Source: Lobosporangium transversale (lineage: Eukaryota > Mortierellomycota > Mortierellomycetes > Mortierellales > Mortierellaceae). Taken from it: a stretch of 64,000 nucleotides of DNA. Positions 14,379 to 64,000 of the stretch are shown here, one piece after another. The first letter of the stretch is position 1. The number at the start of each line of letters is the position of its first letter. The stretch covers positions 496,001 to 560,000 of the forward strand of contig NW_019028995.1 of assembly GCF_002105155.1 (NCBI RefSeq). Reading direction: 5' to 3'. The position numbers and the translations under genes are program-made. The notes under the pieces were generated by a model that was not told the origin of the DNA, ran no database searches, and was given only the letters and a program-made list of their open reading frames with translations.

Positions 14379-15081
14379 GAGCTAAACGTACCTTTTCAAA
14401 ACTAAAGTCTGTATATAAATATCATAACTTGCCAACAATTACTCGGAAACAAAAAATCAAAAAAAAAAGAAAATAAAGTATAGCCCGTTCCATTTGTCGC
14501 GATCCCTTATATTTTTTGAATACTCTTAAATGTATTGGCAGCCAATTGACTCGCTTGTTATTGCAAGTGGTGTGACTGGTCATTAAAATTAATTTCAGTT
14601 TATTTTGTAGTCATAGGCGGGTCCGCCTCACCTAGAAACTACCGAGTATAAAAGCCAAAGAAACTTCCTTCTTAATAAAGTCTTCAGTTTTCCCCACATG
14701 TCTTATTCTTCATCCGCAGTTCATCTTGCCATTTATCTTTTTCCCCTTTTCACAACAAGCATTTGTCTTCCGGTAACTCAGTTTGTGAGCTCACCTATAA
14801 AGCTCCCATCTTTTGACATTCTATGGTGCTGTTTGTAGTCAAGGTTATTTGACTCTATTTTCTCTTGTTAATCTTGTTGACACCCTTTGTCCTGCCTTTT
14901 ACTGCTTGTGTCTATCTTCCTGTCCCTTAAGCGAAGATATACCTATTTTTTACAACAATACCACCAAACCAATTCATTATAGATTAAGACATGTGGGGTC
15001 TATATGTTGTCTAAATAGTCCTCCCCATCAAAAAACATCATCTAGACCAAGCATAGAAATAAAGAGATTAGTCAAGAAAGC
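14379..15081. other. Intergenic region with a promoter-like segment next to the mobile element
   Basis: A TATAAAAG box at 14647-14654 is followed by a CT-rich leader and an ATG at 14698. That ATG would encode a 25-residue signal-peptide-like sequence, ending at a good donor (14773, GTAACT). I could not find a continuing exon before the inverted repeat at 15082. It may be the truncated front of a gene interrupted by the element, or a chance promoter. Confidence 0.35.
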
Positions 15082-15151
15082 ACTGTCAAGCTAATACTTA
15101 CAACTTTTTCAAGACGAAGGCCTTTCCCGACCTAGTCATGTTTGTAGTAGC
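15082..15151 (+). repeat. Left terminal inverted repeat of the FEN1-Fanzor element
   Basis: Pairs with the reverse complement of 20420-20477. The outer arm is at 15082-15099 and the inner arm at 15111-15151; the roughly 12 bases between them (about 15099-15110) are absent from the right copy. Confidence 0.85.
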
Positions 15152-16473
15152 TCATGAAAAATTTTAGACAGACAAGTAGTAACCAGGGAGCAGAAGTGAG
15201 AATAGGATGTGGATTCACACATCACATCCATGGGGCATTTATCCAAATTTGTATCAAAATAAAACTGCAAGTTTGTCTCGGGCACCACACCATGGGGCAT
15301 AGAGCTGTTAGTATGTCTGTATTATAAATTTTCATGTAACACGTGTACTGTGAAATATGCAACTGATCATATCCTATTGTTGTTGCCGGCTTGGTGTCTT
15401 TCCTCCCAATCTATCAGTGAGCATCGGTGCAACGCATATAAGGCACACAGGCTGTTGACGAGCCTACTTCTCACCTTCACCGTTTGACGCAGGTCAGGGT
15501 TGTGACGGTCTAGCGAACAAAACGTAAGGGCATTAACAATACCAGGATCGCATTAGACGGTAGTTGTGGTATTTGCAAATGAGCATCGCCCTGGCTCATG
15601 GAATATGAGTCCAACGTTTTCAAGAAGTTTGGGGCCCCTCTTCCAGCTTATGTTTGCGTAGTCTTCATCTATCAGGCCTTCACCGGCTGCCTTTAAAACA
15701 CGCCGTGTTAAGGAATCCTTGAGAAAGTTTCAATTCCTGGCTGAGATCTTCTTCATCTACGTTAGATTGCTGCTGTCTCTTCGTCTGGACTGTGTCATAG
15801 GCAAGTGGATTCAGAACAAGGCCACTGGTAATATCGTTCCTTTGAGTTTGAACCGAGTTATACCTTTGTCTTGTGCCTGTAGGGGTACCTTGTCTCGATA
15901 GCCATGAAACATGCGATCTCCTTCAATGTCACAAAGAGAGCCTGTATCTAGACTTCTTTTGTTCCCTGTACACATTCAAACACTGCAGTCTTGGAAGGAT
16001 TGTCGAGAGGATGTCAGTTAGGACGTGTTCAGACAGATACACATACCGAGGGGGGACGTAAGGAAGTCTGTTTTTTTTATTTCTTGTTGATTGTCATGGC
16101 GAAGGCTTGATTTGGTAAATGTAGATGATTGGAGAAGAGCTGTAAACAATACTCGAAATCCAAAAAGTTAAAACCTGTCGCTGAGAATCTTATTGTTTCG
16201 AGTTGTTCCAAATTCATCAGCCTTTTGTTTCGTTCTCTTTCATACACCTATAAATACGTCCTGCCTCCTTCTCTTTTTCCCTCTCTCTCTCTCTCATTTT
16301 ACAACGACATTGCTTTCGCGCTCTCACCCGTACTCTTACACCCTCATCCCCTCACAGATCATAACTTTTTGCTTTCTTAAAGGTAAACTATCTCTACTCT
16401 AACAACTTCAGCTTCAATCTTTAGCCGCTTAAACCAACATTGCTTGCACTGTTTTACACTATACTTTCTCTAG
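15152..16473. promoter_or_regulatory. 5' region of the FEN1-Fanzor gene, with TATA box and probable leader intron
   Basis: This 1.3 kb inside the element has no gene I can recognise. TATAAATA at 16249-16256 is followed by a CT-rich leader with a (CT)n run near 16282-16296. A good donor at 16383 (AAAG|GTAAAC) and an acceptor at 16472-16473 (TTTCTCTAG) would remove a 91-bp leader intron ending immediately before the ATG at 16474. Confidence 0.5.
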
Positions 16474-19400
16474 ATGGGTATTAAAGGACTCTATTCATAC
16501 CTTTCAAGGAGAGACCTGCCACCAAAGGAGATTGATGTACATGAGCTTGCTGCTGAACCCCATTCATCTTTTGAGCTGGATCTGCTTGGCACTTTCCACA
16601 GCGATATACATAATATCATCCTAAGGAGATTCAGCTGGCAGAGTTCTTTCACTGCCTGCGGCCATGCTATGGCTAGTATCATTCGAAAGATCTTTGGTCC
16701 TCTTGCCACAGTGACGATACACATTGATGGGCCTCGCTGCGAAGAAAAAACGCGTGCCTATAGGGACCGAGATGCTAAGCGTACAGCAGCGGATGCAAAA
16801 CTCGATACGCTCATAGCCAACATGGAAACCAAGTCCAATGAAGGCAAATGGGAATCTCGAAGCCATATGATTGCCATTAAAAAGAATCTTCGACAGCTCT
16901 TCACATTCAGTCATAACGAGAAGAGGGAGCTCGCGGCGCCATTCGGTCGATACAATAACTTTGTGATTTGCCATTGTAGAAATGAGGCTGATGTGTGTAT
17001 TGCCGCCAAATGTACACCAACCAGTATCGCTGTGTCTGGGGACTCTGACCTTCTCATCTATCCTTCTATAAAAAGAGTTCTTCGTCCAATCCCTCGTCGC
17101 CATCACATGTTTGCACTCTATGAGAAACAAGAGGTCCTGCAGGCCCTTGGGTTTTCAAGGAACAGTCAACTCCTGGTCTATGGCATTATATCCGATAACG
17201 ATTACACCCCAAATATCCCAACCTTTGGTCTTGCTACAAATGCTGAGATTATCTCCGCGCTCACTGACACTGATGCCGAAAAGTTGACGGTATCATATGT
17301 TCGTGAGGTCCATGCCCGTAGCCGTCGAACTCCTGCAGAAGGCCAGTTTGACCATTCAATTAATGTTTTCTTTGGTGGGATCCAAACCCAGGCCTCGCAG
17401 CAACCAACCGCTGAAAGATTCCTTCATTACCATGATAGAATGAGGACTGCGATATCTGCTAGGTACCAGAATAAAAATAATCAACCTCAACCCAGGTAAG
17501 CTCCTTCAAATGAACATTTTCCAAAGCATATACAAAAAAAAAAAAAAAAAAAAAAAGTCATCTAACCCTTGACATTGTTGTTCCTAATTAGATTCTATAT
17601 CCCTAAACGCGCAAAGCCGAATCGCTATCGGCCTGTTTTCCCTACCCAGAAAAAGGAACTTTCCCCTAAGAAATATGACCTGACCAACTGCAAACAACAC
17701 GACCGTCCCGTCAGCTCCAGCCGTCAAAGAAAGTCCCCCAAAAAAAAGGAAAAGGAAAAAAAAGAGGATGACAAAGAAGAGGAGGTTAAGGAGGAAAAGA
17801 AGAAAAAAAAGAAGAACAAAGGGAAGGCCAAGTATATCAGAAAGACTGATAAGACCAGGAAAGTGAAGGAGGCTACTGCCGAGGACCGACGGTTGAAGAG
17901 GGCCCACCCCACTGTTGCATTAACTCTGGGCACGTTAAAGACATGTGTAGTTGCCAAGCTGGACTCTACTTCCGATCCCAATCTCAATCCCGAGCAACTT
18001 GCTGCAACAATCCAAGGGCTCATTCAATCATTTATTAAAATGTTGAATGAGGCACGGATTCGAGCTTTCTGGGCCTGCGCCTTGTGGATCGATAACCTGC
18101 TTACCACTGGGCCATCCAATCCAGCTGATCTCCCACAACTCCTAGATGAAGTTCTTGATAGCAGGAACTTTATTTACGGCCTTGCTGCGTTGTTGTATCA
18201 CGGAGTGATGAGTCCATTATCTAGGTATAGCAGGGAAGTGAAGAAAAAAGGCGAAGGGAACGTAGCCAAGCCGTCCCAGCTCAAAGCATACGAAAACTTC
18301 TATGCAAAGGCAGGGCTTGGTCCTTTAAACCAGATCTATCCCGATTTGGTGATCAGCAGGTCGTCTCGGATGGTCATGGTCCCTGTTCAAGCAGCGCTAA
18401 GGTCTCACTATCGGAATGCGCAGGTAAATATAATATTATAATATTTTGAGGTTATCTTATAATATGTTTATAGAAATGTTCCTAATCATTTCTTCAATAT
18501 AATGTCTAGTTTGACATAGATATTCCAGGCGATGGAAGAAGTTCCATCCAATTCTTTTTTGAGCAAAATGCAACTGCCAAAAAATATCTGGATTTCCCTA
18601 CGTCTGCTTTCTCGCCTCGGTCTCTTTGCCTAACGGAAGCCTGTCTCCTGGATATATTATGGTCTAACCCAACAGTTCGAGAGGAAATAGCCCAATTGTT
18701 AGAACTAAACATGAGTACCAAGGGGGCTGCAGAGGACAAGATCCTTAACCACAAGGGGATATTGTTGCAGGAGCTGTTTTCCTTGAAAGGATACAAGGAC
18801 GTTGGACTGCAATCTGATGATGGTCCTAGAAGGAAACTACGGACATCGTTCTTTACAAACGGCCTTACCCTAACACTTCTTGCCTATGACACATCGAAGC
18901 AAAAAAGAGGTAGAGGTTCGCAAGCTGCCCAACCTTCGGATACTCAAAGATCTTAAGCGGTCCAGGCTTCTTCAAGTGCTCAGCAGGGATCCTCGTCTTC
19001 AGGCCATGGTGCAGGTGATGGTGGTGATGATGGAGACGACGACGGAAATGAAGATGACGATATCTTGCTGGGCATCAGCGATATTGACTTGCTGGAAGTT
19101 GATGAACCATTCTTAGATGGCGAAGAGGGAGAAGAAGCAGCTGAAGAAGGTACATCGAGCACAAATCCACTGTTCCCGGTGAGTCCCAGTCCCCGGCGTG
19201 AGATCAACTGGAAGCAGAGATCCTGTCTCCTCGAGAATGTAGAAGTTAAATATGACACCCAGGCAGCATGCCCTCCCCCCGAAAGTACCATTATCATTGG
19301 GATCGATCCAGGCGAGAGGTACTCGATGACAATTGCAAAGTTGGATCCAAGGAAACCTAACGAACGTGAGATCCTCCGGATTTCTAGAGCGTACCTTTAC

Positions 19401-20410
19401 AAACCATCCAAGAAGTTTCAGGGCGAGCTAGAGAGGCGAAAGCTTAGAAGAGGAATTACAGAGATTGAAAGCAATATTCCGTCATTCTCAAGGCCTACTT
19501 TAACACAGTATTTCGCTTATATGAGCTTGCCGCTAAATCAAGCTCCATCAAGTACTGGAGGTAGTTTCTCTGGTAGTGGAGTTGAGGCCAGTAGTAGCAG
19601 TGGATCTGGGACCAGTGACGACAATAGGGAGACTATATATAGGGCGCTTGTCGATTTCTATAATGACGGGTGGTTTGTTCGGAATAGCTGGGATATTAGA
19701 AAAGCACAGAACGGATGCGTTGATTATGTGATCAAGGCAATTCTGAAGCTTGCGGGCGGAAGCAATGGAAGAAGAAGAGATGCCAATACGAATGCGGTGA
19801 TCTGTATTGGACTAGGATCATTCAAGACAAACCGAGGACAAGTATCGAAGCATGGGATATTGATGAAGAAGCTTGTTGAAAAGGTAAAAAAAAAAAAAAA
19901 AAAAAAAAAAATTCCCTTGATCAATGACATTTAATTTTTGAGTCTTTTTTTAACGAGTATTAAATCTGGCTCGAACAGGCAAAATCTCTAGACTACCCCA
20001 TTGTAGGTTGTCATGAATACTATACATCTGCCAAGTGTCCACGGCCTCACTGTGACAGTATATTGGAGAATGTTCCTTTTCGATCCAAGTACTGTCGAAA
20101 TTGTAAAGCATACTTTGATCGAGATGCTGTTGGTGCTGAGAACATCGCAAGGGTCTGTGAGTCGCAGATAAGAGAGCAAAAACGACCTGCAAAATATATG
20201 CCGCCGGACGGAGGAACTCAAGGCCAAGCTTCTAGCGGTAGTGGCGGCGGTGGAGGTAGTGGTGGCAGTGGTGGCAGTGGTGGTAGTAGTAGCAGACCCA
20301 CAAAAAGAAAATTTTCAGATGAAGGAGGAGGAGTAGAGGGATCAAGACCACCGAAAGGACCTTTGCTGGGTCCAGGAGGAGGGGGAGAGACAAGCCGGCA
20401 ACAACAGTAG
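16474..20410 (+). CDS. FEN1/XPG-type nuclease fused to a Fanzor (TnpB-like) RuvC nuclease
   Basis: Exons 16474-17495, 17592-18423, 18510-18909, 18958-19883 and 19979-20410 give 1203 residues. The N-terminus MGIKGLYSYL matches the FEN1 start. Acidic positions align with FEN1 metal ligands: D36 (LDLLG), D85 (HIDGPR), E171/D173 (NEADVC), D190/D192 (SGDSDLL), D241/D243 (SDNDYTPN). A Lys-rich segment (about 391-431) looks like a nuclear-localisation or RNA-binding region. A middle helical region and an acidic linker follow. The C-terminus is TnpB/Fanzor-like: RuvC-I D868 in IIIGIDPGER, a strand AVICIGLGSFKTN at the RuvC-II position without the canonical Glu (as in Fanzors), and a zinc ribbon of CX4C (C1080, C1085) plus CX2C (C1099, C1102). 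RuvC-III is FDRDAVGAENIARV. A Gly/Ser tail with a basic TKRKF motif ends the protein. Exons 3 and 4 join over a 48-nt intron; without it an in-frame TAA (18954-18956) interrupts the gene. Fanzors are known RNA-guided DNA nucleases; the fusion and its activity are inference. Confidence 0.85.
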
Positions 20411-20419
20411 GACACAATC

Positions 20420-20477
20420 TACTACAAACATGACTAGGTCCAGAAAGGCCTTCGTCTTAAAGTATTGGCTTGATAGT
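20420..20477 (-). repeat. Right terminal inverted repeat of the FEN1-Fanzor element
   Basis: Reverse complement of the left repeat at 15082-15151. It begins only ten bases after the stop codon of the nuclease gene, so the 3' UTR must run into or through the repeat. Confidence 0.85.
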
Positions 20478-21152
20478 ACTTTTTTTTCTTGGTTAATTTA
20501 TTTATTTATTTCTGTGTTCTAATACATTTCTTCTTTTTACAATAGATGGAATGTCTCGTTTTTTAATGGGACGGACTATATATATTGTATAGATTACTAT
20601 TTCTGATCACATATTGTAATAAAGAAGAGTATGACTTTCAAAGCATCTTGGCATACAGAGAGCATTTTGACTAGCTGTGGCTGTGAAGAGCATTTGCGTT
20701 AGTATTTACGTAGTCTTTCCTCGTCTCTTGCCACAAATTCCTGACTCAAAGCATACAACTATTAAGCTTAGGTTCAAACCCACTAGTCAACTGGCCTCAA
20801 AGGATACGGAAGACGTGCTCATCATTCGAATTTTGTAGCCTTGGAATTATAAGAGGATCGAATCTCTTTTTCTCAGAAGGTGCATCCGATGTTTTTTCTA
20901 AAAGGGAAAAACCAATGGGATTACTTCCTTGTAACTCATTCACGTCCGCTACCTCTCTGATATTCATCATAATTAGCCAAGCCCACAGCGGGCGTAACTA
21001 TCCATCAGGTCAAGTACAAACGGATAAATAAATAAATAATAAAAAAAAGAAAAGCTGTACACACTCGCAACACTGTCAGTCAATACTCCTGGAGAGAGGA
21101 GCTGCGGCCAGGACCGTCGTTTTCATCTGTATTTGTCGCATATTCTTTTCAA
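20478..21152. other. Intergenic region before the acetyl-CoA transporter
   Basis: T-rich just after the element, then mixed sequence with an AATAAA-rich patch near 21022-21040. No gene seen. Promoter elements of the transporter gene are not distinctive. Confidence 0.5.
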
Positions 21153-57533: not shown

Positions 57534-58410
57534 TTTTTTTTTTTTTTCATTAGCTGCTGGATGAAATGAGAAAAGAGAAGAAAAACCCTGCGCCACCAAA
57601 TTAGTTTATCCCTTCGTCCGTCACAAGGGCAAATTTGCCATTATAAATGGGTTTAAAATCCAGCAATCCATGGGCATTGTCTTGAAATTTTATTTTGATG
57701 TCGAAATAAATGACCGAAAACTAAATTGTCATGGAGCTATCCTGGCTTCTTTATTTGTGCAAATAAAAAACTCATGAAGACTTTCGCATGACCTTAGCGT
57801 CCGCTTGGGGGCTCATTGTATCGTTTATTTATTGACTGATGTAATATAACAGTGATAATATTCGCCGCCGTAGTCTCGACTTGAAAGGAGTGCAATCTGA
57901 GTTGATTCATTCTACCACACCATAGAGCTTGACTAACTTGATCTTTTCCTGTACAGCCCGGCAAGACTTGATTTGTCACATCGTTTGCTTGCTCGTCTTC
58001 TTGCGTTCCCTTGATATATCTGGGTTGGTAAGCACTGCTAATAGAGTTTGTTGGGCCTGTTGAAACCAGAGGGAGCCACAGCAACATATCATACCCAAGG
58101 TGATACAAATATCTCTGTTGGAGTGAGTGGTGAACTGTGTGTTCAGATGTAGTGGACATAAACGGCGAAAGAATGCATCGAAAGGATGTGAGCGGTTATG
58201 AGAGCAAGGAAGAAGGGGTTGGTATGCCTGTTCAAGTCCTTGGCAAGAGAGCATGAGTAGCAGTTGTGATCAATGGTATAGTTTCTAGACCCTACCTTCC
58301 AGTACAGCATTGCATTATTGTTGTTTTCAGACCTGGCACCAATCATGCGAGGTATTTCTTTTTCTGAGGGTTCCTTGTGTTAAACGGCCAGACAGAAAGC
58401 TTAGAAGAGA
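57534..58410. other. Intergenic region between the peptidase gene and the mariner element
   Basis: Short frames only. Nothing recognisable; the part next to 57534 is the promoter of the peptidase gene. Confidence 0.5.
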
Positions 58411-58412
58411 TA

Positions 58413-58448
58413 GAGTCCTCGCCAAAAAGTCGTCGACTAATATATTTT
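58413..58448 (+). repeat. Left terminal inverted repeat of the mariner element
   Basis: Matches the reverse complement of 60654-60689, with only a few mismatches. Confidence 0.92.
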
Positions 58449-58683
58449 TAAAATACTCAATTTGAATTAAAAACCGGAAAAACAGAGATTTACGTACAAA
58501 GACTTCCCTCATCCATATAATTTTTTGACTGAATTGGAAACCGTTGTTTTTTTATGAATCTGAAACTGACCAACGAAGCAGACCTTCATTACCCTCATTC
58601 ACATTCACTCATTCTCCAAGAAATAGTCAAATGTCTTTCCCTATTGATACGATAGTCACCCCTCATATAATGATCTGAGTGAT

Positions 58684-60587
58684 ATGTATAATGATCTAAG
58701 TGATACCGATCTAACGTTTCTAGGAACACGCACAACTCCACCCCGAAGATGTCGACAATCGCCCTCCAAATTCAATGTCACCTCCACTAGATCTCCCACA
58801 CAATATCATTGGAATACCCCACCTAAGAACAGATCCAAGGGATCTCCTTCAAAAGAGCAGCTTCCCGATGCTGCTGATCCAAATCCATTCTTGTCAAATG
58901 GACAAGCTGTAGAGCTTCAGCAGGACATTGGTGAATTATCCCGTAATAAGGCGACCATTATACATAACGAATACGTTATGATGGCTCGGACATTCAAGGC
59001 TATTACCGAGGGGCCATTAGAAGTTTGACAGTGGTTTATGCAGACGCCAGACAGAGCGAACAACTTGGCAATTTTAATGGGTGTAGGGAGAGATGCATGT
59101 TTGACAGCAATTAAATTTGCTACCACAGGTGTCCTCGAGTTCAAAGACCGCGGTAAAGCTAGACATGAGAGAACCAGACGTGGAAGAACTGGACGCCCAA
59201 AAAAAGAAATTGATCAGGATGTAACCTCAAAAATCATGGCTGTCATAGTCAAGTGCGGAGCCCCTAATTCGGCCTCTATGGTTGCCAACCAACTAAAGGA
59301 TGACTTTGGGATCGATAGATTAGCAAGGTCAATCACTCGTGATCTTCGCAAAATGGGTTTATATTGGGGTAAAGGAATCCGACAACATTGCTTGCATGAC
59401 TCCAAGAAAAATGTCGCGTTCCGAACAACATACCTCAAGCGTCGCCTCAGTAATCTAAAACTTGTGGACGGCAATTGGGTTCCTAAAATGCCAGAAGTTT
59501 TTTTAGACGAGTCTTATTGTCACATCGATCATGCTGCAGCAAGACGTTGGGTGAAAAGTAGTGGTGGTGTCGTAAACGATGCGGGAAGAAAGCCAATAAT
59601 AGTTATCTTTGCGGCATTCGTTGTGTATTACGATGAACTCAACAAAAAAGTTGAGGGCAAATTCGTGAAGGATAGTGTATATATCTGGCCATCCAAAGGG
59701 CCAAAGCCTCAGTCAAAGAAGGGCCAAGAACGGGAGGCAGAGTTGTGGAACGATGTGCCCGAAGAGATCAAGAGTGCAGGAGTTGTAGCAACAGGTCACG
59801 ACTATCATGGGAATTTCAACGCCAATTTATTTGATAGTATTTTTAAGCGACTTTGTGAGAACCTCAATGAGATGGGACTGGGGCCTTGCCAAATCCATCT
59901 TGATGGTGCTTCATATCATTTCCATAAGAAAAACAAAGTACCAACCAAGAGCGACACTGTGGCAACTATCAAAGAGTGGCTCACCAACAAGGGTATTGCT
60001 ATTCCAACCTAGGAAAATGGAAAAGCGGCGAATAAAGACGATCTTATGGAGTTGATCAAAGCCCTTCCTGACGAGTCGTATTTCTCTGTCAGTAAAATCG
60101 CCCAAGAGAATGGTGGCCATGAAATTCTCAAGACTCCACCATATCACTGCGAACTTCAGCCTATGGAGAAAATTCGGGCCGTCGTTAAAAACATTATTGC
60201 GTCGAGAGCAAGGACGACAATGACAGCCCTTTTGCTGAAGAAAAGGCTTCTCAGCTTGTTTTCTTAGATTCCGGATAGAATATTTTATTCTGTATGGAAA
60301 AAGTCTGTGAAAATTGGTATGAAATACTATAACGAGGAAGACGTGTCCAAGGAATGTTGGATGAGGCGGACGAGAGGCATTACCAAGAGATCAATGATGA
60401 ACAGGAGACAATTGAGGACATTAGCGAGGAGATTAGACTCGACAGCAGTGAATGGGACCTAGAACTCGATAGAGTAGTAAACCAAGAGCAAGCTGGGGCT
60501 GTAATAATGGAATCTGAGATCGAGGACCTTGCACCAGATACTGGAAACATGTTTGGTTTAGTAGAGGATAGTTCTCGTAAAAATTAA
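58684..60587 (+). pseudogene. Inactivated Tc1/mariner-like DDE transposase
   Basis: Coding sequence is recognisable from 58684 to 60587 but interrupted: in-frame TGA at 59026-59028, TAG at 60010-60012, TAG at 60265-60267, then a frame change before the acidic tail (60354-60587). A Ser/Pro-rich N-terminus is followed by a helix-turn-helix region with a basic patch (RHERTRRGRTGRPKKE). The DDE core has the first Asp at 59506 (VFLDESYCH), the second Asp at 59902 (IHLDGASYH) and the Glu at 60166 in PPYHCELQPMEKIRAVVK. D-to-E spacing is about 87 residues, much longer than the usual 34-41, and recalls long-spacing groups such as DD82E. Three stops plus a shift mean this copy cannot make a full transposase. 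Confidence 0.9.
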
Positions 60588-60653
60588 AATTTTGAGTTTG
60601 TACGTTTTTTTTCGTCTAAAAACGGAGGGATTTTATTCAATTTAAAAATGTGA

Positions 60654-60689
60654 AAAATATTTTAGTCGACGACTTTTTGACGAGGACTT
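60654..60689 (-). repeat. Right terminal inverted repeat of the mariner element
   Basis: Inverted partner of 58413-58448; followed immediately by the TA at 60690-60691. Confidence 0.92.
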
Positions 60690-60691
60690 TA

Positions 60692-61860: not shown

Positions 61861-64000
61861 ATGGGGCTGAAGTCCTTCTTCAAACTGGTTGCGGCTCGCG
61901 GGGTTTTACCTTCGGAAACTGACGTGGGCACTTTCTTGGCGGCAAATCCTGACCATTCTGTTCATTTAGATCTCCTCGGTACGTTCTATTACGACATCCT
62001 CCGCAGAGTCGTCCATGCAAAGATGAAAAACGAAACCATCATTGATGTAGGAAGGTCCCTGGCACTCGAGATAAAGGATCTTTTCACAACGGACAACCTG
62101 ACTATACATGTTGATGGGGAACCTTGTACTGAGAAAGAAAAAGCAAGGACAGAACGGCAAGCCATAAGACAAAAAAATATGGACGCTTTGGAGAACAATA
62201 TGAGCACCTTCGAGAGAAATTCTCGGAGTGGGGTATGGACTCGTCCTCAAGTCATGAGGCGCATCCAGAAGGGTCTTCGAGAAGTCCACACCCTGAGCGT
62301 CCAGGACAAGGATCAGCTGGCAACAGGCCTTAGTTCTGTCTTCGATGTCTGTCTGTGTGCATATGAAGCGGACCCATGCATAGGGTGCCATGATGAGGAG
62401 AATGATAGGATCGTGATATCCCAAGACTCTGATTTTTTTGCGTACGAACGAGTCTGCTTCCTAGTGCGACCCCTTCCACACCGTAGACGGAAGTTTGGGG
62501 TTTACGACGTAGACAACGTTATCCAAGCACTAAGACTGCCAACACACGCGCATCTGGTGTTATTCTGTGCCATCGCAGGCAATGACTACTCAAGGAACCT
62601 CGAGACGTTAGGCCCGGTTAATAATCTTCGATTAGTTCGAAAGGTTGCGTGGAACAAGACCTACAATAAAATACTTCAAGATTACCTCGGGGAAGCTAAT
62701 AAGGTGTTGGGAAGGAACGTAGCCTCTGAGGAAGGCCGTTTCAGTGTAGCTCTCCGCATTTTTACTTCCGGCCATCAAACGTCGGCCCAAGCGTTACCAT
62801 CGAACAATGAGTTCGATAACTTCAAGCAGCGTCTACTCAATGGAAAGGATCTTCGCCATAGAATGGCTCAGCAAAGGCGAGCGCAGCGCCGCAGAACGTA
62901 AGAAAGCTCAAGCTATAGTTTTGGCCTTGAAACCATACGTCCCCAATACTAATCGTTAGTCCCTTTCTTGGATAATGTAGAGACACACCATCATTCTATA
63001 TAGCGAAAGGGTCACATAGGAACCAGTTCCGGCCCATCTTTTCTGACAAGGCGAGCATATTGAATGGGCGCACAGTTGATATCAGTAACTGCCGTCAGCA
63101 CGATAGGCCGGGCCTTAAGCATCCACCACGTCGGAAAAAGGCAAAAAAGAAGCAACAGAAAAAACAAAAGCGGAAGCATAAAGGCAAGAAGCCTCACAGG
63201 GCTAAAAAAGAAGGTGCACCAATTAGGAACTTGAAGGATGCTACGAAGGATGATCACAGCTACAGCAGTAAGTACCCTATCAAGGCCTTAACAATTGGGT
63301 CCCTTAAGGCCTCCATGGCAAGGAAAGGCGAACTGGACGCAGATGAAAGGGATAGTATTGTAAGCCAGACCCGAGGGGCAGTTGTTGTCCTCAACCGACT
63401 ACGCCGCTATGCATACTGGGCGATTGCCTTGGACATTGAGAGGATTATGCGGTTACCAGGGGCAGCAAGGTCGAGGAAAAAGGCACTGGACGAGGCCTTG
63501 GATAGCAATGACTACTCCTTCCGTCTCGCCACCCTTCTTTTAAGTGGTCAAGGTGGCCCCAATTCAGCTTACGCGAGGACAAAAAAACAAGGAAAGGCGT
63601 AGAAACGCCCCATTACCTCCTCGCTTATGAACATTTCAAGGCCATCACTGAACTTTCCCCAATAAAGGAAATAGACATCACATTGGGGGACGTGCAAGGC
63701 TTTGATCCCAAAAAGATCTCATTTCCAAGAGCGTCAGAGCTACTAATGGGCCAAGTACAGATATCATTAAGGCAGCACTACAGGAACGCAATGGTATAGC
63801 TTGTGTAGGGTATTTTCATGTATATTCTGCAATCAAATGCTCTTTATTCAGACTCTTTTTTTTTTTTTTTTTTTTTTTTCTAGTTTAATGTCGAGAAAAC
63901 AAACGAAGATATGAGCGACATTGAGTTTTTTTTGCGGGAGAACAAAAAAGTGAAAAAATACTCAGACTTTCCTACGTCCTCCTGGTCACCCAGGTATGTG
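61861..64000 (+). CDS. Second FEN1/XPG-type nuclease gene of the FEN1-Fanzor family (partial, with a frameshift)
   Basis: Exons 61861-62897, 62981-63793 and 63884 onward run off the window. The N-terminus MGLKSFFKLV and motifs LDLLGTF, IHVDGEPCTEKEK, YEADPC, ISQDSDFF and AGNDYSRN keep the same acidic FEN1 positions as the copy at 16474. Identity is only moderate by eye. Intron 1 is phase 2 and intron 2 phase 0 at the same alignment points in both genes. After intron 1, FYIAKGSHRN then NCRQHDRPG parallels FYIPKRAKPN then NCKQHDRPV, and a similar Lys-rich segment follows. Within exon 2 the frame closes at 63600-63602, but homologous sequence (YLLAYEHFKA, then LRQHYRNAM) resumes in the -1 frame. 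One base is apparently missing, most likely in the seven-A run at 63581-63587. The Fanzor half should lie beyond 64000. Confidence 0.8.

Follow-up and report, generated by a model that had tools for sequence, protein, structure and literature searches.

We analyzed a 64,000-nucleotide stretch of the Lobosporangium transversale genome (contig NW_019028995.1, positions 496,001 to 560,000 of the forward strand; hereafter the window) and found that a gene at 16474..20410 belongs to a family of mobile-element-borne proteins in which a 5' nuclease of the FEN1 family is fused to a Fanzor1 nuclease. The gene lies within an element of ~6.1 kb on the plus strand (14481..20578), and its window copy is broken. 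An original prediction, made from the window sequence, had proposed such a FEN1/XPG-Fanzor fusion; the proposal holds for the family, with seven single protein models from outside the L. transversale genome and one long open copy within it (L009), but not for the window copy as written, which carries a premature stop. As judged by sequence comparison, the union of a FEN1-type nuclease and a Fanzor in one protein appears to be a new architecture of known components in Mortierella-group soil fungi.

Gene structure and relatives of the FEN1-Fanzor fusion

The window gene consists of four exons on the plus strand, separated by three introns with GT...AG ends. Exon 1 (16474..17495) encodes the FEN1/XPG-type 5'-nuclease domain, which starts with MGIKGL and carries D36, D85, K92, R99, E171, D173, D190, D192, and D243. 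Intron 1 (17496..17591) falls in the linker between this domain and the Fanzor part. Exon 2 (17592..18423), in which no Pfam family scored above cut-off, encodes a lysine-rich linker and the initial Fanzor region (presumed WED/REC) and is collinear with residues 348-639 of P0006, the Mortierella alpina protein BGZ68_007048 of 1121 residues, which aligns exon by exon with the L. transversale genome. After intron 2 (18424..18509), exon 3 (18510..19883) contains the remaining presumed REC/WED region with a TNG motif, an acidic linker, and the RuvC-I motif GIDPG (Asp codon at 19305-19307). Intron 3 (19884..19978) is followed by exon 4 (19979..20410), which encodes the alternative catalytic Glu (HEYYTSAKC, codon at 20015-20017), the zinc ribbon, the RuvC-III motif DRD (20117-20125), and a variable Gly/Ser tail. 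The three introns of the original prediction were borne out by their recurrence at matching places in a diverged second subfamily, where the copy L038 has plausible splice sites (its intron 3 donor was judged by eye), and by a search of P0006 against the L. transversale genome, in which the matches in many copies break at residues ~346/348, 639/642, and 1043, the same places as the window-copy introns. Beyond the last conserved motif (window 20180-20410), the copies differ in frame: the window copy and the annotated L. transversale model P0001 read RPAKYMPP, and L009 and others read RPQNICRR.

The single open spliced frame claimed for the window copy overlooked an in-frame TAA at 18954..18956, which breaks the frame after residue 766. 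We read this stop as a nonsense change private to the window copy, and not as the trace of a missed intron, because all 14 other near-identical copies projected on the same model have CAA at this position and their frame runs on across the site. One of these 14 copies, L009, has an open frame of 1209 codons that spans both nuclease domains. In the other 13, which count against an intact family, the projected model, built on the exon borders of the window copy, meets a stop before residue 1000. The window gene is thus a nonsense-mutated member of a largely broken family that retains at least one long open frame.

Protein searches recovered at least 19 distinct relatives, all but two of them from Lobosporangium, Mortierella, Dissophora, Podila, and Entomortierella, genera of the Mortierellaceae; the searches rely on shared exact words, so more distant or wider relatives are possible. 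The same architecture, which the original prediction had suggested seeking in other proteomes, was found outside the L. transversale genome in seven single models that hold both ends (P0003, P0004, P0006, P0009, P0011, P0015, and P0017), with sources that include M. alpina and Podila; P0003 lacks one segment of the nuclease domain. The remaining relatives are partial models or lack one end. P0001 begins at the tail of exon 1, so that the nuclease domain is hidden, and this short gene model may explain why the fusion escaped notice. Among viral contigs, 24 pattern matches were obtained with P0006, and none was confirmed as a relative.

Assignment and active sites of the two nuclease domains

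A phmmer search of exon 1 against the PDB returned seven sequences, all of them XPG or FEN1 (best E-value 5.4e-4). With a profile built from 18 proteins, positions ~18-281 matched FEN1 (1a76, E=1.8e-4) as well as EXO1, XPG, and Rad2, the alignment to FEN1-type enzymes continuing beyond the motif NDY, and positions 933-998 matched the Fanzor SpuFz1 (8gkh, E=0.0068). In this search FEN1, EXO1, Rad2/XPG, and SpuFz1 all scored at or below 0.16, followed by three unrelated entries at 0.88 or above. Profile searches, proposed earlier as a check of both ends, thus led to FEN1/XPG relatives and to SpuFz1, and neither end was assigned to an unrelated family. The NCBIfam model fen_arch matched two of the four full proteins (P0006 and P0017) and the subfamily-2 exon below its cut-off, and no NCBIfam match was obtained for exon 1 of the window; P0006 and P0017 each matched both guided_TnpB and fen_arch, again below the cut-offs. 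By these similarities the nuclease domain is a divergent FEN1/XPG relative, which we place in no subfamily and do not file as FEN1 itself. FEN1 proper has a C-terminal PCNA-binding motif. No such tail was seen by eye in the fusion, where the nuclease domain runs into the lysine-rich linker and the Fanzor part.

The FEN1-type residues named in the original prediction (D36, D85, E171/D173, D190/D192, and D243) were all found in place; D241, also named, is present in the window copy but is not conserved in relatives. The carboxylates are kept in the ten nuclease domains that were aligned, save for the segments missing in P0003 and P0008. K92 and R99 stand at +7 and +14 of D85, a spacing shared with K93 and R100 of human FEN1. 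Of 20 proteins examined for the corresponding pattern DG-X5-K-X6-R, 9 have it, and the remaining 11 are models from which that stretch is missing. The domain is probably an active 5' nuclease in intact members of the family.

The GIDPGE motif, the CX4C...CX2C zinc ribbon, and the DRDAVGAENI motif reported earlier for the Fanzor part were likewise present. The zinc ribbon of exon 4 matched PF07282 above the Pfam cut-off (E=1.2e-6), as did all seven proteins given to Pfam, and guided_TnpB of NCBIfam matched all four full proteins given, below its cut-off in each case. A profile of the Fanzor part alone had SpuFz1 as its top PDB match (E=0.0077), with matches to RPB4 from the acidic stretch coming next, at 0.028 or above; in the region that corresponds to exon 3, relatives align to SpuFz1 via a GID..ES..PS segment. 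By sequence, the similarity to this characterized Fanzor can be described as weak but specific.

The published definitions of Fanzors were applied to 20 proteins. The pattern of Bao and Jurka (D-X(125,275)-[TS][TS]XX-zinc finger-X(5,50)-RD; Bao and Jurka 2013, PMC3627910), tested with an additional G required after the Asp and with CX2-4C allowed, was present in 12 of them (L009, P0004, P0006, P0009-P0013, and P0016-P0019); the match begins at an upstream D in P0004, P0006, P0011, P0012, P0013, and P0018. It was absent from P0003 (IEPG) and P0015 (VDLG), and from P0001, P0002, P0005, P0007, P0008, and P0014, in which the RuvC part is missing or broken. The Fanzor1 hallmark (Yoon et al. 2023, PMC10711439) combines a DPG in RuvC-I with a catalytic Glu that precedes the zinc ribbon by six residues, a spacing that the alternative Glu of exon 4 shares; it was tested with two of its spacings made wider and with CX4C accepted as the first zinc pair. 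Together with DRD it was found in 11 of the 20 (L009, P0004, P0006, P0009-P0012, and P0016-P0019); P0013 (GIGPG), P0003, P0015, and the six proteins with a missing or broken RuvC part lacked it.

Several observations weigh against a fusion of two functional nucleases as assigned here. With P0003 as the single-sequence query, the PDB search returned an unrelated chain at 1.9 as its sole match, and neither FEN1 nor a Fanzor was recovered. Pfam XPG_I_2 matched two of seven proteins below its cut-off (0.0017 and 0.0032) and the other five not at all, and no match reached the curated cut-offs of Pfam XPG_I and XPG_I_2 or of NCBIfam fen_arch, the best E-values being 0.0017 and 0.0019. In P0002, which is outside the ten-protein alignment, DSN replaces DSD and one carboxylate is lost, and in P0003 and P0013 the Asp of the RuvC-I motif is changed.

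The mobile element and its candidate guide signals

The element, which represents subfamily 1, is flanked by TA at 14479-14480 and 20579-20580, and homology between its copies spans ~14478 to ~20580, stopping at the element ends. These ends are imperfect inverted repeats of 14 bp, TAGCCCGTTCCATT at 14481 and TAGTCCGTCCCATT at 20565-20578 on the minus strand. The open reading frame list contains no second large frame outside the fusion gene within 14481-20578, and the element encodes no DDE transposase. When the FEN1 part was searched against the L. transversale genome (42.7 Mb in 127 contigs), 105 matches were obtained, among them 14 full-length copies of the FEN1 exon that are 97-100% identical (window copy included), a fifteenth copy of 98% identity covering residues 20-341, and a further group of ~32% identity that constitutes subfamily 2. 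The genome holds over a dozen near-identical copies of the element plus older subfamilies. The right end has at least 42 matches and the left end at least 44, and a derivative of 179-190 bp with inner inverted repeats occurs at no fewer than 40 places (e.g., L055:201-379 and L057:201-390).

TA was present on both sides in most of the 16 copies read. Many offsets were scanned in these copies for a target duplication in the form of 2-10-base direct repeats, and none beyond TA emerged (best excess over mismatched pairs, 0.11); the scan omitted L011, L013, L015, L018, L022, L028, and C39, in which an end is absent, truncated, recombined, or unmatched. Ten joined flank pairs were searched in the genome for an empty site, and no match crossed any of the junctions. 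In the left arm of the window element, positions 15052-15922 contain antisense fragments of the 3' part of the fusion gene, including stretches inverted to 20391-20516 and 18853-18893, which are perhaps an old inverted deletion copy.

The two domains also occur together across the genome. For 40 of the 69 zinc-ribbon (PF07282) matches, a FEN1-domain match lies 0.5-5 kb upstream on the same strand, a count into which 94 of the 105 FEN1 matches and the full set of zinc-ribbon matches entered; for RuvC the corresponding number was 54 of 72 among the matches listed, with 67 FEN1 places used. At least 7 of the 29 zinc-ribbon matches lacking an upstream FEN1 domain are subfamily-1 copies with an internal RuvC deletion (C33:636183, C36:8433, C53:389013, C53:484668, C59:3065, C85:108972, and C87:229190), and other such places, e.g., C106:394247, C62:36027, and C45:412207, could be ordinary Fanzors. 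Among the five best zinc-ribbon scores, three belong to more diverged copies with a FEN1 match 2.6-3.5 kb upstream (C59:204618, C79:170384, and C13:669327), and the other two, C106:394247 and C62:36027, have no such upstream match.

The base immediately outside the left TA of the window element (position 14478, plus strand) is a G, which we propose as part of a target-adjacent motif (TAM). This base is G in 20 of the 21 left ends of subfamily 1 at the fetched loci, the exception being an A at the damaged end of L022, where about ten bases are lost; the left TA itself reads TT in one subfamily-1 end and TG in another. On the right, among the 16 copies in which both ends were read, the TA is followed by T in 11, C in 4, and A in 1. 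If the target preference were symmetric, the right side should mirror the left, which it does not. We read the G as a TAM-like mark and predict, by analogy, that the TAM of subfamily 1 is GTA or GTATA. In the three left flanks seen in subfamily 2 this base is A, A, and T, which would imply a different motif there. For SpuFz1, elements and ghost loci alike have a conserved CA beyond the left repeat, and the TAM established by testing is CATA (PMC10432273). By analogy to other Fanzor loci, the region from the stop codon to the right end (20411..20580, plus strand), with three predicted hairpins, is a candidate for the guide RNA (omega RNA), and the guide would start in the right flank.

Other observations count against these assignments. 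Among ends of the short-derivative type, G precedes the TA in 9 of 14, less often than in the full element, and at the opposite end of the short derivative it does so in two of four matched places; the full element thus shows a strong G mark and the short derivatives a weak one. The G might also belong to the element itself and be no TAM mark. The 179-190-bp derivatives share only the left end of the element and are without the right end, in which the RNA is expected. Folding of 14 right ends gave 28 pairs with 97.1% of cells paired, not significantly above the 96.9% in shuffles; the covariation score was reached by 34 of 500 shuffles, and the hairpins showed one double-sided change. An Rfam search for the guide RNA gave no match.

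Possible roles of the fused nuclease

We propose that the fusion protein is a homing-type RNA-guided nuclease whose 5' nuclease works with the Fanzor by trimming the cut ends, a reading based on analogy to which we give about an even chance. RNA transcribed through the right end of the element would carry a guide made of the adjoining flank, and, on a chromosome without the element, the Fanzor would cut the site that matches this guide, next to a GTA/GTATA motif. The fused 5' nuclease would then trim, in cis, the 5' overhang or flap left by the Fanzor, and the break, instead of being rejoined, would be repaired with a copy of the element made from the sister or homologue; insertion at a new site would need a transposase in trans. 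SpuFz1 leaves 5' overhangs (PMC10432273), a possible substrate for FEN1/EXO1-type enzymes, and trimming in cis would favor repair by copying. The pairing of guided cutting with flap processing suggested by the original prediction fits, at the sequence level, both the conserved catalytic residues and the mobility of the element. A stronger form, in which one RNA-guided protein performs the RuvC cut and its own FEN1-type resection or de-flapping and so spreads the element by self-contained homing with no transposase, seems to us rather doubtful.

Selection among the copies was assessed from nonsynonymous-to-synonymous ratios in 14 copies (window included, L022 left out), with the changes taken as independent and one-sided binomial tests. 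The ratio was 0.50 in the FEN1 exon (p 0.04), 0.59 in exon 2 (p 0.07), 0.35 in exon 3 before the stop (p 0.004) and 0.46 after it (p 0.003), and 0.42 in the zinc ribbon (p 0.15). Amino-acid changes thus appear rarer than expected in both domains, which fits recent function before most copies broke.

The alternative that survives best, with perhaps a modest chance of being correct, is that the 5' nuclease serves the movement of the element: it would process branched intermediates, i.e., flaps or gaps at the ends, of a TA-targeting transposase acting in trans, and the Fanzor half would protect the donor site, so that the two halves act at separate steps. Such a role would suit an element with inverted ends and TA flanks but no second large protein, in which the catalytic residues of the nuclease are kept, and L. 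transversale has Sailor, a member of the IS630-Tc1-mariner group with TATA duplications (PMC8533490). However, no duplication longer than TA was detected, and the sole Tc1-like element in the window has different ends, the search for transposases having covered the window and not the rest of the genome. It is less probable, and in our view unlikely, that the FEN1-like domain mainly binds DNA or RNA structure and loads the Fanzor on branched DNA or R-loops, with its nuclease activity being minor. The large divergence from cellular FEN1, apparent from the sparse sub-threshold Pfam matches, and the carboxylate lost in P0002 would agree with a binding module, whereas every other relative that contains those stretches keeps the carboxylates and the two basic active-site residues, and the number of amino-acid changes in the FEN1 exon falls below expectation.

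We consider it quite improbable that the fusion is decaying baggage in L. transversale, its copies dead and its domain without a present role. The stop in the window copy, the 13 other copies interrupted under the projected model, and the frameshifted or truncated state of the subfamily-2 copies read all point in that direction, but the near-identity of 14 copies over the whole FEN1 exon, the one long open frame, the deficit of amino-acid changes in both domains, and the both-domain relatives in other genera argue otherwise. That two adjacent genes, one FEN1-like and one Fanzor, were merged by gene prediction is barely credible: P0001 does begin without the nuclease domain, but it continues from the last part of exon 1 into exon 2 with intron 1 removed, the frame of L009 stays open across both domains, the introns recur at matching places, and seven single models elsewhere hold both ends.

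Among characterized systems, SpuFz1 of Spizellomyces punctatus (PMC10432273) resembles the Fanzor part in its RuvC DPG, the alternative Glu before the zinc ribbon, and the DRD, and its element is likewise fungal and multi-copy: it has inverted ends, carries additional conserved bases beyond its left end, has yielded no transposase, and has many protein-less derivatives ('ghost loci') comparable to the short derivatives described here. The fusion differs from SpuFz1 by the added N-terminal FEN1/XPG-type nuclease of ~340 residues, the CX4C first zinc pair, the proposed GTATA in place of CATA, and a length of ~1200 residues, whereas the SpuFz1 gene fits inside a locus of ~2.1 kb. PpFz1 (PMC11423790) is another Fanzor1 with an added domain, from a host fungus related to Mucorales; its FRI, however, is a RuvC insertion that binds cyclophilin and is not a second nuclease. 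With FEN1, XPG, and EXO1 the fusion shares the MG start, the carboxylates, and the Lys and Arg at +7 and +14 of the DG motif, but its domain is built into a transposon protein and the similarity is very low. Sailor (DD82E, IS630-Tc1-mariner group; PMC8533490) has TA/TATA flanks and the same host, but encodes a DDE transposase, which the fusion element does not.

No published FEN1-Fanzor fusion was found in the part of the open-licence literature that was covered, and an entry hidden elsewhere is possible. In the same literature, Fanzor was not mentioned together with XPG or with Mortierella, and Fanzor or TnpB appeared with FEN1 in unrelated passages only. The main texts of Bao and Jurka, Saito, Yoon, and the Cell 2024 paper contain no mention of Mortierella, and those of the first three none of Lobosporangium. 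On the question of why eukaryotic elements keep a Fanzor, a lineage that combines it with a nuclease for processing DNA ends, both active sites being largely conserved, directs attention to a step after the cut, namely, end processing towards repair by copying. Because the two active sites can be mutated separately, the fusion opens this idea to a direct test. It could also be of practical interest, as repair may be biased when a guided cutter processes the breaks it has made.

The window also contains a second, diverged FEN1-Fanzor gene, a member of subfamily 2, at 61861..64000 on the plus strand; it runs off the window and is frameshifted in this copy. The subfamily-2 element starts near 57607, reaches about C37:561489, and has the ends TATCCC.../...CAACAGATA. 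A Tc1-like element (58409-60690) with a weak DDE_3 match and its own 36-bp inverted ends, with AGTCGTCGACT, is inserted in the 5' part of the subfamily-2 element; it was rejected as a transposase partner of the fusion element, its ends being unlike those of the latter. Two recombinant junctions were observed elsewhere in the genome: in L018, at ~7100, the right end of the subfamily-1 element abuts the left end of a subfamily-2 element, and in L028 the left flank corresponds to the inside of a short derivative.

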